From Weissella fangxianensis (lineage in GTDB: Bacteria > Bacillota > Bacilli > Lactobacillales > Lactobacillaceae): a stretch of 49,912 bases of DNA. The stretch spans positions 1 through 49,912 of the forward strand of contig NZ_JAMXDB010000011.1 of NCBI RefSeq assembly GCF_024718545.1. The letters run 5' to 3'. The notes below the pieces were generated by a model that searched no databases, was not told the origin of the DNA, and saw nothing but the letters and a program-made list of their open reading frames with translations. The position numbers and the translations under genes are program-made. Shown piece by piece: positions 161 to 27,610 of the stretch (positions are counted from its first letter, which is position 1; every line of letters starts with the position of its first letter).

Positions 161-1324
161 TTAATTAATTAATTTTCCAGACTTATAAACGGACTTCGGA
201 CCTTGTAGAGCCTTTATATTTGCTAATGGATCTTCATTCAAAACAATAAAATCAGCCATAAAATCAGGCGCTATTTCCCCAACATGGTCATCAATTCTTA
301 ACACTTTCGCGGCATTGCGAGTTGCTGCCAGAATAGCATCTTGGGGCGTTAAGCCGAGCGCTGTCATTTTTTCAAGCTCCTTCGTTGAACCATCACTAAA
401 GTTATTGAATGGTGTCCCCGCATCAGTACCCATAACGATTTCAACCCCTGCCTCAATGGCCTTTGCGATACTCTGACGATGAGCTAGCAAGACATCCTCA
501 TTTTTGTCATACATCCATGCAATGATGTCTTTTTTATGATCATGGATAGCATCTGGCGCAGAAAGCGTTGGCACAATTGGCGTACCGGTTTGTAGTAACA
601 TATCAATCGCCTCATCATCCAAATAAATCGCATGCTCGATTGAATCTACACCTGCCTTGATTGCATTTTTTATTCCTTGATTACCTTGCGCATGAGCAGC
701 TACTGGTATGCCATAATTATGCGCTTCTTCGACAGCTGTTGCTAACTCAGTAACACTGAATTGGACATTACCAGGTACTTCTTGATCATTACTCGTAACA
801 CCACCAGTTGCCATCAACTTGATGTTTTTAGCACCCTCTTTAATCAATTGACGCGTTGCTTTGCGGACCTCATCAGCACCATCTACTTCCTTACCAATAG
901 CCCCTGCCCCATGACCACCGGTAATCGTCAGTGCAGCCCCACTAGCGATAATATTTGGACCAGCAATCACATGTTGTTTAATCAATTTCGCTAATTTAAT
1001 ATCAATGTTATTTGCTGCGCCAACCTCTCTGATTGTCGTTACACCATCTGATAAAAATTCACGTAAATGTTTCGTTGCATAAATGGCCAGTTCCGTCTCA
1101 TTGGTAATGTTTGCCAGTTGCTTTTTATCACTAGTTGTTAAATCTGAAATATGTGTATGCGCATTAATTAATCCCGGAATGATAAACTTACCTGATAAAT
1201 CAACAACTCGAGCATCATCATCATTATCTATAAAATAGCCTGAGTCTGTATCAACCGTAAAAGCTGCTGTTTTAAATTCACCTGCGATAAAAATTGCGCC
1301 ATTAATAAATTTTACTTGTGTCAT
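161..1324 (-). CDS. Metal-dependent amidohydrolase (imidazolonepropionase/Xaa-Pro dipeptidase-like)
   Basis: This 387-residue protein is an amidohydrolase-superfamily TIM barrel that should hydrolyse an amide or peptide-like bond in the cytoplasm; no signal peptide is seen. Visible metal-site elements are H56-x-H58 (NAHTH), K169 as the likely carboxylated lysine (KLMATGG), H211 (AAHAQGN), H231 (SIEHA) and D301 (MGTDAG). The start has an AGGGG ribosome site. It lies 17 bp downstream of the OppA-like gene, so the two are probably co-transcribed, which hints that it processes something the binding protein captures. The substrate cannot be named; related enzymes include prolidase-like and N-acyl amino acid hydrolases. 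Confidence 0.85.
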   Translation of the reverse strand: MTQVKFINGAIFIAGEFKTAAFTVDTDSGYFIDNDDDARVVDLSGKFIIPGLINAHTHISDLTTSDKKQLANITNETELAIYATKHLREFLSDGVTTIREVGAANNIDIKLAKLIKQHVIAGPNIIASGAALTITGGHGAGAIGKEVDGADEVRKATRQLIKEGAKNIKLMATGGVTSNDQEVPGNVQFSVTELATAVEEAHNYGIPVAAHAQGNQGIKNAIKAGVDSIEHAIYLDDEAIDMLLQTGTPIVPTLSAPDAIHDHKKDIIAWMYDKNEDVLLAHRQSIAKAIEAGVEIVMGTDAGTPFNNFSDGSTKELEKMTALGLTPQDAILAATRNAAKVLRIDDHVGEIAPDFMADFIVLNEDPLANIKALQGPKSVYKSGKLIN

Positions 1325-1341
1325 TACTGATATTCCCCTAT

Positions 1342-2949
1342 TTATTTCTTGTAAGCTTCTTTAAAGTCAAACGTTGCGCCATAAGTATTCACTAACAATC
1401 CTTTAACATTTGGTCGAACCAATGATGGTGTCGACTGATGTCCTAAAGTAACAACTGGCAGTTCACTATGAATTCGTTGTTCAGCTTGTAGTAAATCCTG
1501 GTACCGTTTAGATGGCTTATTAACATCATTGCCATTAGCCCGTGCGAGCGCTGCATCATATTCTTTATCATTAAATTGTGCAATATTGATACCACTATCA
1601 CTTTGAACCATATTAAGAAAACTCATTGGATCTGCATATTCACCACCCCATGAAGTTAAGACAATGTCAAAATCATGTGATAATTGTGCTTTAACTCGCG
1701 CAGCCTTCGGTTGAAATTTAACCGTTAATTCAACACCAGGTAAATTCTTTTGTAACTGATTTTGCACATATTGTGCTTCAATCTTACTCTGATCATCGTT
1801 ATCGGCTAGTAAAGTTAGCTTTATTTTCTTCGTCTCACTCGCAGCTAAACTTTTCTTAGCGTCTTTTTTATTAAAGGCATATTTTTTACTGTTAGCCTCT
1901 TTACTAAAGTCACGCTGATTATCTGGATTCTTAATTGTATTCTCAGGCGTAAAGGCATTCCCGCTACGTTGAATACCCTTAAGCACCTTATTTGTCAGCC
2001 CTTTTGTATTAATAGCTTGCTTGATGGCAACTCGCACGTCTTTATTTTGTAAATATTTATTTTTCATATTTAATCCCAAAAAGTCAGTCCGACCATTTTT
2101 AATACTATGGTATGCGCGGTTATTTTCATTCGCTCGAACTTGATCAGCAGTTAATGGTGTATAGTCAGATTTCCCAGCTTTATATAAATTATAACCAGTC
2201 GTATTATCGGTCACGGTCTGGATATTAATTTTATTTGTGGCAACATTTTTCTTATCTTCATATTGACTATTTTTTACCAACTGATACGATTTATCCGAAC
2301 CATGCCAATTTTTTAGTATAAATGGCCCATTCGATAATGTTTTATCTGAGGATGTACCATATGCCTTACCCACCTTCGTAACAAATTTTTTAGGCTGCGG
2401 ATAAAATGCTGTGCCAGTCAGAATACTTTTAAAAGCAGGATCAGGATTATTCAAAGTGATTTTCAATGTCTGACTATCAAGTGCTTTAACACCAAGATCA
2501 TCAGCTGCTTTCTCACCGTTTGTTACTGCTGTCGCGTTCTTAATATTATTAGCTAAGGTAGCGCCATTAGACTTATTTTTCGGATCAACAGTCTGTTGCA
2601 TACCAAAGACATAATCATTTGCCGTCACTTTTTCGTGATTAGACCACTTTAGATCATCTTTTAAATGAAACACATATTCACGACCGTCTTTTGAAATATC
2701 AACCGACTTGGCATCAGCTAATTGCGGTTGATTATTTTTACCATATCGATATAACCCTTGCCCAGTTTGAGTGACTATTTCCGAACCAGTAGAATCATTA
2801 GCCTGCGATGGACTCATCGTCGTCAAAGCTGCCGATTCTGTCCAATTGATTGCTTGATCCGCAAAAGCTACTCTTTCCTGTGACAAACTTGCAATAGTTG
2901 CCGTCGTCATCCCCACTGACAATATGAATGATAATTTCTTTATTCTCAT
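1342..2949 (-). CDS. OppA-like extracellular peptide-binding protein (SBP family 5)
   Basis: This 535-residue solute-binding protein of the oligopeptide/nickel family (SBP_bac_5) would capture a peptide outside the cell for an ABC importer. An N-terminal signal peptide (basic MRIKK, hydrophobic core, likely cleavage after AFA near residue 30) is clear. No lipobox cysteine is present, so unlike typical Gram-positive OppA it does not look lipid-anchored. Motifs such as WSNHEKVTANDYVFG and the C-terminal LVNTYGATFDF are typical of the family. No permease or ATPase genes are adjacent, so it must use a transporter encoded elsewhere. The GGAG ribosome site sits just after an intrinsic terminator, and expression is probably controlled by the Trp-codon leader upstream. 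Confidence 0.9.
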   Translation of the reverse strand: MRIKKLSFILSVGMTTATIASLSQERVAFADQAINWTESAALTTMSPSQANDSTGSEIVTQTGQGLYRYGKNNQPQLADAKSVDISKDGREYVFHLKDDLKWSNHEKVTANDYVFGMQQTVDPKNKSNGATLANNIKNATAVTNGEKAADDLGVKALDSQTLKITLNNPDPAFKSILTGTAFYPQPKKFVTKVGKAYGTSSDKTLSNGPFILKNWHGSDKSYQLVKNSQYEDKKNVATNKINIQTVTDNTTGYNLYKAGKSDYTPLTADQVRANENNRAYHSIKNGRTDFLGLNMKNKYLQNKDVRVAIKQAINTKGLTNKVLKGIQRSGNAFTPENTIKNPDNQRDFSKEANSKKYAFNKKDAKKSLAASETKKIKLTLLADNDDQSKIEAQYVQNQLQKNLPGVELTVKFQPKAARVKAQLSHDFDIVLTSWGGEYADPMSFLNMVQSDSGINIAQFNDKEYDAALARANGNDVNKPSKRYQDLLQAEQRIHSELPVVTLGHQSTPSLVRPNVKGLLVNTYGATFDFKEAYKK

Positions 2950-2984: not shown

Positions 2985-3027
2985 ATAAAAAACGGCCAAT
3001 CAGCACATTATGTGCTAACTAGCCGTT
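2985..3027 (-). terminator. Attenuator terminator before the oppA-like gene
   Basis: On the minus strand the arms at 3027-3011 and 3007-2991 make a 17-bp stem (three G-U pairs) around a UAA loop, followed at once by a run of T. It ends about 35 bp before the oppA start, so unless it is prevented it should block the gene. Its 5' arm (3025-3014) can instead pair with the segment at 3069-3058. Confidence 0.9.
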
Positions 3028-3110
3028 GTCTTTTAAAATTGACAGGTTAATTTCTAGCGGCTAGCTATCGTTAATACTTAACTGATAGCTAGCCCACAAC
3101 AAATAGCCAA

Positions 3111-3185
3111 CTATCTCGTTGGCCACCACCATGAAATAGTTGCTGAGAATACAACTTGATTAATTTGTGAATTTATTAATAACAT
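3111..3185 (-). CDS. 24-residue leader peptide with Trp-Trp-Trp
   Basis: The ORF starts at ATG 3185 behind a strong AAGGAG site 8 nt upstream, and ends at TAG 3113-3111. The product begins MLLINSQINQ and ends SWWWPTR. Three consecutive TGG codons in a 24-codon ORF, placed between complementary RNA segments and before a terminator, are the mark of a ribosome-sensing leader. It lacks a normal signal peptide. The alternative is a small hydrophobic signalling peptide with a WW motif, which I judge less likely because of the hairpin arrangement. Confidence 0.8.
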   Translation of the reverse strand: MLLINSQINQVVFSATISWWWPTR

Positions 3186-3223
3186 GATGTTTTCTCCTTA
3201 CATGTCTTACTAGAATTTATTTA

Positions 3224-3251
3224 ATTATAACGCTAGTATGAGAAAAAGCAA
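3224..3251 (-). promoter_or_regulatory. Promoter of the leader-oppA transcript
   Basis: TTGCTT (3251-3246) and TATAAT (3229-3224) are separated by 16 bp, which puts the transcript start near 3217, about 30 nt before the leader ATG. Confidence 0.75.
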
Positions 3252-3293: not shown

Positions 3294-3992
3294 TTAATTT
3301 TCAAAATTTGCAATCAATACTCGGTTCCCTGCCGACTGTTTTGTTGGGTCAGCCTGGCCGAATGCTGCCTGTGTCAAATGAAGTTTCGCAACTTCGACAC
3401 CAAAATAATCTTGAATTAAATTTTGTAAAAACAACAGCAATGCTTGTGAATCAATTTCCGTTTCGTGAATTAATACGGGACCCTTATTTTTAAACACAGC
3501 TGAATTCCGTAAATTATCAACCTTCTTTTCTAGCGCTGGTAATCCAGCCACTAAATGATAGACCACATGATTTTCGTGAACCCACTTTGTTAAATGGACA
3601 ACATGACGCAAATCAGTGAAACCAATTGGTAAAATCATATCTGCAGCAACTGCTGTTAATTGCATTGGTTCTTGCGTTTGCTTTTGAATAGTACTTTTTA
3701 GTGCGGTTGTATCTAAAGTAAAGCGACCATTATAGTCCAACATAGCCTGACCAAGCAACATTTCAACACGCGTCACATAGCCAATCCGATCAAACTGTTC
3801 ATTATGCTGTAATTCTTGTGCTAAGTGTTGTCGAAAAATATCCGGTGCGCGCCAGTCAAGTCGTAATTTCGCCTGATTTAACTGAATATCATCGCCCTCT
3901 GCGTGAAATGTAATCAAGGTATACCCCATGGTACCCGGTATTTCATTGAGGACAGCTTGTCTATCATCTGAAAAAAAGTGACTATTATACAT
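3294..3992 (-). CDS. Unrecognised protein, last gene of the aro operon
   Basis: I do not recognise this 232-residue protein. It has no signal peptide, membrane segment or Cys cluster, and looks soluble and cytoplasmic. Its ATG overlaps the end of aroD by 8 bp (3985-3992), so it is translationally coupled to the chorismate pathway and was presumably kept for a related purpose. No terminator is evident between its stop and the promoter at 3251-3224. It could be a regulator or an accessory enzyme of aromatic metabolism, but nothing in the sequence decides this. Confidence 0.75.
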   Translation of the reverse strand: MYNSHFFSDDRQAVLNEIPGTMGYTLITFHAEGDDIQLNQAKLRLDWRAPDIFRQHLAQELQHNEQFDRIGYVTRVEMLLGQAMLDYNGRFTLDTTALKSTIQKQTQEPMQLTAVAADMILPIGFTDLRHVVHLTKWVHENHVVYHLVAGLPALEKKVDNLRNSAVFKNKGPVLIHETEIDSQALLLFLQNLIQDYFGVEVAKLHLTQAAFGQADPTKQSAGNRVLIANFEN

Positions 3993-23555: not shown

Positions 23556-23583
23556 ACACATTTCTATTCCTTAAGACCGTGAC

Positions 23584-23747
23584 AATAGCTCCCCGCTTAT
23601 TCAGCGACAGTCTAATAGTTTTTCGCTATTAGCCCAACGATACGAGTTACACAATCTGTATCATTTCGGCAACCGCCCCTTTTACTTAGTATCATTGTCT
23701 GTGTGAACTCCACTAAGTGACTGTTGTTGGTTGCAACCTCTATTAAT
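23584..23747 (-). promoter_or_regulatory. Lysine riboswitch (L box)
   Basis: On the minus strand the sequence shows the L-box landmarks in order: AATAGAGGTTGC at the 5' side of P1, GGGGCGGTTGCCGAA, a hairpin arm ending in TTGGGCTAATAG, ACTGTCGCTGAA, and GCGGGGAGCTATT closing P1 against AATAG. The terminator follows. Lysine binding should stop transcription of the alr-lysA-dap-asd operon. The divergent lysC has no such element. Confidence 0.93.
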
Positions 23748-23762
23748 CATTAACGTAACATT

Positions 23763-27472: not shown

Positions 27473-27489
27473 ATAAATTTGTTAGATGC

Positions 27490-27610
27490 ACAGGGTAGAT
27501 CAAGATGCGTTAAGTGCCATGGAAACGGAATGTGGGCCATGGACGAAGGATTACCGCGATGTCTTGGTCACATTCACTGTAATAAGTGAAACCCTCCAAA
27601 AGAAGGAGGT
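27490..27610 (+). promoter_or_regulatory. Tetrahydrofolate riboswitch with a Shine-Dalgarno-masking hairpin
   Basis: Conserved THF-riboswitch elements occur in order: GGTAGATC, GCGTTAAGTG, GAAACGGAATGTGG, GGACGAAGGATTACCGCG and TTGGTCACATTCACTG. The outer helix is ACAG/CTGT (27490-27493, 27577-27580). Downstream, TTCACT can pair with AGTGAA (27573-27578 with 27585-27590), competing with that helix. CCTCC (27593-27597) is complementary to the ribosome site GGAGG (27605-27609), so control is probably translational. Confidence 0.9.

Follow-up and report, generated by a model that had tools for sequence, protein, structure and literature searches.

Leader-peptide attenuation is a textbook control of amino acid making. 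The E. coli leaders trpL, hisL and thrL combine an SD-led short ORF, a run of one or a few kinds of codon, alternative hairpins and an intrinsic terminator, and we describe here a leader of the same build from Weissella, a genus of food bacteria. It lies in a 49,912-nucleotide stretch of Weissella fangxianensis DNA (contig NZ_JAMXDB010000011.1; hereafter the window) and differs from the E. coli leaders in that the genes behind it encode a peptide-binding protein and a peptidase-like enzyme and not a biosynthetic pathway, in its Gram-positive host, and in having six pairing segments with a very stable 3:4 hairpin and a weaker equilibrium contrast. Most likely, this tiny leader gene with three Trp codons switches on peptide-scavenging genes when Trp is short.

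An earlier note on this DNA had assigned leader attenuation mainly to Gram-negatives and actinobacteria, which is too narrow, as three papers also place it in Firmicutes (PMC5794164; PMC9413887; PMC2965389). The ilv-leu operon of S. aureus has a leucine-rich leader-peptide attenuator backed by mutations and reporters, and the excerpt that describes it also cites predicted leader attenuators in L. lactis and streptococci (PMC5794164). That system resembles the Weissella leader as a case of leader-peptide attenuation in Firmicutes, but it is biosynthetic and concerned with branched-chain amino acids, and the excerpt notes no codon exchange between orthologous operons. His leader attenuators also occur in Firmicutes, although the histidine genes of Lactobacillales are most often under T-box control (PMC9413887), and in bacilli they precede hisZ/hisS* genes, with T-boxes and leader peptides exchanged on related genes (PMC2965389). 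Such leaders share with ours the regulatory codon runs before attenuator hairpins and the exchange with T-boxes; they differ, as far as these excerpts go, in being limited to histidine and in standing on his biosynthesis and hisS-type genes. The Trp T-box (RF00230) is a likeness of another sort, because it reads tRNA-Trp charging (as judged from its specifier column) and in one Weissella genome stands before the same gene pair, but it binds tRNA directly, has no leader ORF and is an unrelated RNA. Among the matches listed in our search of the open-access literature, titles and abstract openings mention no leader peptide before a peptide-binding protein gene and none in Weissella. Leader-peptide attenuation is a known kind of control; the peptide-scavenging target and the exchanged codons are new as far as we have searched.

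Leader anatomy, regulated genes and conservation

The leader and the genes behind it lie on the minus strand. A probable promoter (3224..3251) has a weak -35 hexamer, TTGCTT (3251-3246; TTGATT in the related genome G018), a 16-nt spacer and a perfect -10 hexamer, TATAAT (3229-3224); it was missed by a consensus scan of the window that required four of six matches in each hexamer. The ribosome-binding site AAGGAG (3194..3199, also present in G018) stands 8 nt upstream of the ATG (3185-3183) of a 24-codon ORF (3111..3185) that reads MLLINSQINQVVFSATISWWWPTR and stops at a TAG (3113-3111). Three adjacent TGG codons (3123..3131), taken as the regulatory codons, end 9 nt (three codons) ahead of this stop and are invariant in the window genome (G000), G023 and G018; the ORF is open in G000 and conserved in G018 as a short ORF with a ribosome-binding site, from which translation is predicted. 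Within and behind the ORF we placed by hand the boundaries of six segments: segment 1 (3133..3143), which pairs with 2; segment 2 (3105..3117), which contains the stop codon and pairs with 1, 3 or 5; segment 3 (3084..3095), which pairs with 2 or 4; segment 4 (3057..3069), which pairs with 3 or 5; and segments 5 (3027-3011) and 6 (3007-2991), which make up the terminator hairpin (2991..3027; 17 pairs, -25.7 kcal/mol). The T-run after its stem (2992-2987) begins 43 nt upstream of the oppA ATG, and this intrinsic terminator, which precedes the first gene oppA, is retained in G018.

The earlier note had reported a promoter, an AAGGAG site and a 24-codon ORF with three adjacent Trp codons before an oppA-like gene, and re-reading at 3251-3111 finds them all; segment 1 (3143-3133) indeed lies just before the Trp codons and the stop (3113-3111) inside segment 2 (3117-3105). 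The leader-peptide anatomy is thereby confirmed as real. A leader scan (ATG, AGGAG or GGAGG, 15-35 codons, a run of three or more identical residues towards the end, and a terminator 60-180 nt downstream), its criteria fixed only after leaders had been seen, gives the ORF at 3185-3111 as the sole match on both strands of the window. A looser first version of the scan also gave ORFs of another kind, e.g. LICVICCC and LRWASISMSSYLLWVC, which were set aside.

The first gene (1342..2949, minus strand) encodes an OppA-type peptide-binding protein of 535 aa (SBP_bac_5, PF00496, 221.9 bits); the solved proteins closest to it in sequence, e.g. 6npo and PrgZ (4faj), bind oligopeptides. The second (161..1324, minus strand), 17 nt behind it, encodes a 387-aa amidohydrolase (PF01979) of dipeptidase/carboxypeptidase type; its best NCBIfam match is Xaa-Pro dipeptidase (286.9 bits, below the cut-off of 500), and among its nearest solved relatives are an arginine carboxypeptidase (3be7) and an Xaa-Pro dipeptidase (2qs8). 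The pair is conserved in relatives, and a peptide-binding protein together with a dipeptidase-like enzyme would fit genes that serve the amino acid sensed. No cysteine occurs in the first 40 residues of the OppA-type protein and no lipobox was seen; the leader-controlled relatives whose N-termini were inspected, in an unsystematic comparison, also lack the cysteine (the start at L125 is doubtful).

Upstream, the leader's neighbour is a gene that ends an aro (shikimate) cluster, as named from ORF translations. The 232-residue ORF at this cluster end (3294-3992) has no Pfam or NCBIfam match; a clear relative occurs in seven of 28 genus genomes and a weak one in two more. In G018 the gene pair is followed by convergent genes resembling an ECF/ABC cluster (named by eye). 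The pre-leader gene also has orthologs in G001, G012 and G019, which run straight into ECF/ABC-like convergent genes with neither leader nor pair between, and in G003, where another ORF comes next. The leader and its two genes thus look like one block that was gained, or lost, together.

We found the Trp leader in three of 28 Weissella genomes: the window genome, G023 (which matches Weissella thailandensis JCM 10695), where it is identical, and G018. Some OppA-type relative is present in 23 of the 28, and a close one (87-100%) in three, all three with the Trp leader. In G018 the OppA-type protein is 87% identical and the leader peptide reads MLLIHSEINQVVLSATISWWWPAR; the Trp codons and the pairings are kept there and identical in G023, which is the conservation that the earlier note had proposed to look for. 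Between G000 and G018, identity is 93.3% in the leader ORF and 95.2% in the stretch behind it, and it is lower outside the leader, at 82.4% and 83.8% for the two flanking genes and 80.4% for the spacer upstream of the promoter. Five codons of the ORF have changed, four with a change of residue, and the Trp codons are untouched, as expected if only those codons matter. The G018 terminator stem carries two base changes with pairing preserved (by eye), and its hairpin 3:4 has lost one loop-side pair.

By DNA homologue search, the leader DNA is present once in the window genome. When 397 genomes of the family were searched with a covariance model of the Trp leader (R1), the three known copies and five weak hits (E 4.7e-4 to 8.7e-4) were returned; WW ORFs lie near two of the weak hits (L078, L080), none has WWW or an AGGAG-type site, and all five were rejected. 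A WWW pattern matches in 19 of the 28 genus genomes, in the Trp frame (judged by eye) only in the three with the Trp leader. Its order-wide counterpart gave six matches in 133 genomes, none in the Trp frame by eye, with an ORF too short to fit the window's own leader, so that it is uninformative on longer leaders.

Sister leaders and a T-box in the genus

Before OppA-type genes of other Weissella the same leader geometry recurs with the codons exchanged for Phe (five places), Ile (eight) or Leu (one). These come from a leader scan of 78 oppA upstream regions, a set that includes repeats and omits some weak or fragmentary OppA hits (e.g. G007:C65 and most G008 fragments). The scan matches 23 regions, seven of them repeat fetches, leaving 16 distinct places besides the window, where two further Trp leaders join the other types; with the window there are 17, in 12 of 28 genomes (hand count). 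Shuffled controls match in none of 7800 regions (78 regions x 100), and a scan of 615,470 bases of loci, overlaps included, yields 46 ORFs, all among the 12 peptides of this leader set. All four types of leader (Trp, Phe, Ile and Leu) have their stop codon within segment 2 or at its border, and a segment 1 that directly precedes the codon run or overlaps it.

The oppA-amidohydrolase pair itself was seen 12 times in the genus, window included, and is preceded by a Trp leader in three cases, a Phe leader in five, an Ile leader in two and a T-box in one (G020); upstream of the remaining pair (L130 / L009, G021:C11) we found neither leader peptide nor T-box. The Phe leader MNNSVHTTAYSVNAFTSFAFFFFKKR and its small variants precede the pair in G005, G006, G007, G008 and G010, and the Ile leaders MKHVLVEKLNVMTLVAPIIIAIIISQ and MKNVSVEKLNVMTLVAPIIIAIIIISQ in G019 and G010. 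Further Ile leaders stand before other OppA-type genes in G003, G005, G006, G007 and G010, and G020 carries a sequence-divergent one, again on another OppA-type gene. The leader at L152:421-657 (G021:C60), which reads MMKSRVQMNIKADAVTTALLSDRLLLK, has TTG codons near its end and a full ladder and precedes an OppA-type gene, is a probable Leu attenuator. The more distant operons of the pair extend the conservation check in a particular way: geometry is kept, sequences and amino acids differ, and one operon has a Trp T-box.

When 39 OppA-type proteins are placed in a tree, the Trp group, the Phe group and each of two Ile groups form one clade, and the amidohydrolase-linked SBPs fall in a 12-row clade (100/99) that also holds one SBP without an amidohydrolase. 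Leader-bearing SBPs are confined to one half of the tree, a split that is weakly supported (85/71); in the other half, 12 of 20 SBPs are followed by an OppB permease-like gene (by eye). Outside the amidohydrolase clade, four Ile-type SBPs have a proline-iminopeptidase-like gene behind them (331.8 and 319.9 bits in the two tested, cut-off 167.65), so a peptide binder is found more than once together with a peptidase-like gene. At L175 (G006:C1:723400-727500) the peptidase-like gene behind the Ile-type SBP is present only as shorter ORFs; it is one ORF in G010, G005, G003 and G007. A covariance model of ten Trp, Phe, Ile and Leu leaders (R2), run on the 397 family genomes, returned 14 Weissella places, which are model members or near copies (G005 and G008 are outside the sample), and two weak hits, where by eye there is no such leader. 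At the sensitivity of R1 and R2, no member of the leader set was found outside Weissella among these genomes.

The G020 pair is preceded by a T-box (L125:851-1111; G020:C1 about 423,150-423,410) that scores 94.2 bits, the gathering score being 93. Its specifier column in the Rfam alignment is UGG (Trp), and UGG also stands in that column in two control T-boxes, which precede trp genes in G023 and G001; the Trp identity is our inference from that alignment column. Because the G020 T-box reads UGG and the Trp genomes carry the leader, the oppA-amidohydrolase pair appears, from sequence, to be tied to tRNA-Trp by two unrelated devices. Besides L125, a T-box was found in one of 60 other SBP loci (L140:451-715, G003:C45), where it has an AUG (Met) specifier and precedes another OppA-type gene. 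In the window, 2985-3251 has no match to a T-box or other Rfam family at the gathering threshold, and the window's two matches lie elsewhere. A lysine riboswitch is found at 23578-23750 (minus strand) and a THF riboswitch at 27489-27581 (plus strand). We did not find trpA, the sole trp gene searched, in the window genome; it is present in two of 28 genomes (G001 and G023). G000 is likely a Trp auxotroph by this sign, which fits a dependence on Trp from outside the cell.

We lean, with only modest confidence, towards a single attenuator family that descends from a common leader and whose codon run was exchanged (Trp, Phe, Ile, Leu) while copies of an operon for a peptide-binding protein and a peptidase each became matched to another amino acid; in one species a Trp T-box would stand in for the leader.

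Pairing ladder and folding states

The earlier note had proposed that the segments pair either as 1:2, 3:4 and 5:6 or as 2:3 and 4:5, and the duplex energies of these pairings beat nearly all shuffles. For 1:2, 2:3, 3:4, 4:5 and 5:6 they are -11.3, -14.6, -20.0, -16.5 and -26.4 kcal/mol, and shuffling the letters of one arm gave as strong a duplex once in 500 for 1:2 and never in 500 for each of the others (computed on L003, the identical leader of G023). Randomised stems of equal letter content matched neither 2:3 nor 4:5 of the Trp leader in 1000 trials each, and the leader as a whole folds with a z-score of -8.2, with none of 200 shuffles as low. Because shuffles and random stems almost never match its pairings, the ladder is real and no by-product of two hairpins. 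In all seven leaders tested, the joint 2:3 and 4:5 pairing was matched by at most one of 1000 random stems; 4:5 by itself is only moderate in two Ile leaders (28 and 24 of 1000). In an alignment of ten leaders, ten pairs of stem 3:4 form in all ten rows, seven of them with changes on both sides. MAFFT fails to align the Phe segments with the other leaders and places segments beyond hairpin 3:4 poorly, and covariation was therefore scored on the alignment for 3:4 alone. In a control that crossed arms between leaders, a leader's own pairing was stronger on average, and crossed arms equalled the weakest own pair in 18, 6, 0, 15 and 11 of 38 cases (1:2 to 5:6); we ascribe the strong crossed arms to a CTAG core common to the arms.

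If the ribosome is stalled on a Trp codon and the transcript stops short of segment 6, the best fold is not the ladder's but a 2:5 pairing around an intact 3:4 (-36.0). Forcing 2:3, and with it 4:5, costs the ensemble about 5.4 kcal/mol in stability. The antiterminator pairings of the earlier note are thus real, but its 2:3 plus 4:5 form is not the favoured one at equilibrium, and antitermination probably does not rely on the 2:3/4:5 ladder alone. In these models either form (2:3 with 4:5, or 2:5) holds the 5' arm of the terminator.

We then expressed the switch as the equilibrium cost of freeing the terminator 5' arm in the stalled state versus the stop state, with a 13-nt ribosome footprint. 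For the whole arm, the E. coli controls separate sharply in trp (8.4-9.3 vs 0.0 kcal/mol) and thr (7.1-13.4 vs 0.0) and less so in his (2.7-8.2 vs 3.6), while the Trp leader gives about equal costs (6.8-8.3 vs 6.9 kcal/mol). When only the arm's first nine bases are to be freed, the cost for the Trp leader is 6.3-7.9 vs 3.7 kcal/mol, a separation of 2.6-4.2. It is 5.3-8.1 vs 2.8 for the Phe leader (at four of six codons) and 7.5-12.2 vs 2.0 for the Leu leader (at four of five). Among the Ile leaders, by the same nine-base measure, those of G003 and G020 barely separate the two states and those of G006 and G019 are reversed (2.1-3.5 vs 7.4-8.1). The mean pairing probability of the terminator arm leaves the two states of the Trp leader unseparated (0.76 vs 0.68). 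Folding in both states, another check that the earlier note had put forward, hence has a mixed outcome: equilibrium antitermination is clear for the Phe and Leu leaders, weak for Trp and unsupported for four Ile leaders. In the Trp and Ile leaders, folding kinetics during transcription would have to do the work.

The proposed switch and its rivals

Region 3185-2985 is, in our judgement, very probably a ribosome-mediated transcription attenuator of oppA and the amidohydrolase gene. When charged tRNA-Trp is scarce, the first ribosome would stall on the three Trp codons and cover segment 1, leaving segment 2 free to pair with 3 (4:5 following) or with 5 around the 3:4 hairpin. The terminator 5' arm would then be held, and RNA polymerase would continue into oppA and the amidohydrolase gene. 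With ample Trp, the ribosome would reach the stop codon and cover segment 2, so that 3:4 and the terminator 5:6 form; with no translation, 1:2, 3:4 and 5:6 would form. The operon would collect and split peptides, returning Trp to a Trp-poor cell, if the binding protein and the putative peptidase act on suitable substrates and if transcription and translation keep the required time. Counting against the attenuator are the weak Trp and failed Ile fold contrast, the G021 pair without a leader, and the presence of the Trp leader in three genomes, two of them with identical copies.

Several of the findings above bear on other explanations. The leader could sense slowed or blocked translation in general (antibiotic, stress), in erm- or bmrB-like fashion, with the Trp codons merely slowing the ribosome. 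Leader-peptide attenuators of such a kind are reported in Firmicutes (PMC4191407, PMC6851288), but we regard this as very unlikely here, because sister leaders show a clean swap of the codon run for Phe, Ile or Leu codons, the genes are for peptide binding and peptidase-like functions and not for drug efflux or ribosome protection, and the same pair is under a Trp-specifier T-box in G020. It is likewise quite improbable that Weissella transcription outpaces the ribosome, the hairpins being a constitutive terminator plus a relic and the ladder never switching: the leader is better conserved than the surrounding genes, and five sequence-divergent types (Trp, Phe, two Ile, Leu) retain the five pairings and the stop-codon position. 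What speaks for runaway transcription is the weak or reversed equilibrium contrast in the Trp and Ile leaders and a B. subtilis RNA polymerase that outruns the ribosome (PMC9226507), which would defeat attenuation if true in Weissella.

Two further rivals concern the molecule that acts. The 24-residue peptide might itself be a small protein or a trans-acting signal, given that one from a trp leader of Sinorhizobium is reported to act in trans (PMC7298713). Since four of the five codon changes between G000 and G018 alter the residue, and since the Trp, Phe, Ile and Leu peptides have by eye no evident common sequence, we hold this to be extremely unlikely. We give practically no credence to the idea that the leader RNA binds tRNA or Trp directly, in the fashion of a T-box or riboswitch; T-boxes are abundant in the window genome (24 matches at E<=0.001), but the leader stretch gave no Rfam match at the gathering threshold and has a conserved SD-led ORF instead. 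Ribosome-mediated attenuation remains the reading that we prefer, and the interpretation in the earlier note is supported: the conserved attenuator before peptide-scavenging genes, one of a set with exchanged specificity, is real, and its mechanism is likely as proposed.

The Weissella leader would govern amino acid scavenging from peptides, and would do so in bacteria that have many T-boxes. With leaders for Trp, Phe, Ile and Leu and one Trp T-box, the related operons offer a natural experiment on how specificity changes by codon swap. The leader set also probes transcription-translation coupling in a lactic acid bacterium, a pointed matter since the B. subtilis polymerase outruns the ribosome. 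If the single-family account is true, timing between ribosome and RNA polymerase would be tight enough for leader peptides in this Gram-positive lineage, and the peptide uptake of an auxotroph would be split into separately sensed amino-acid channels.
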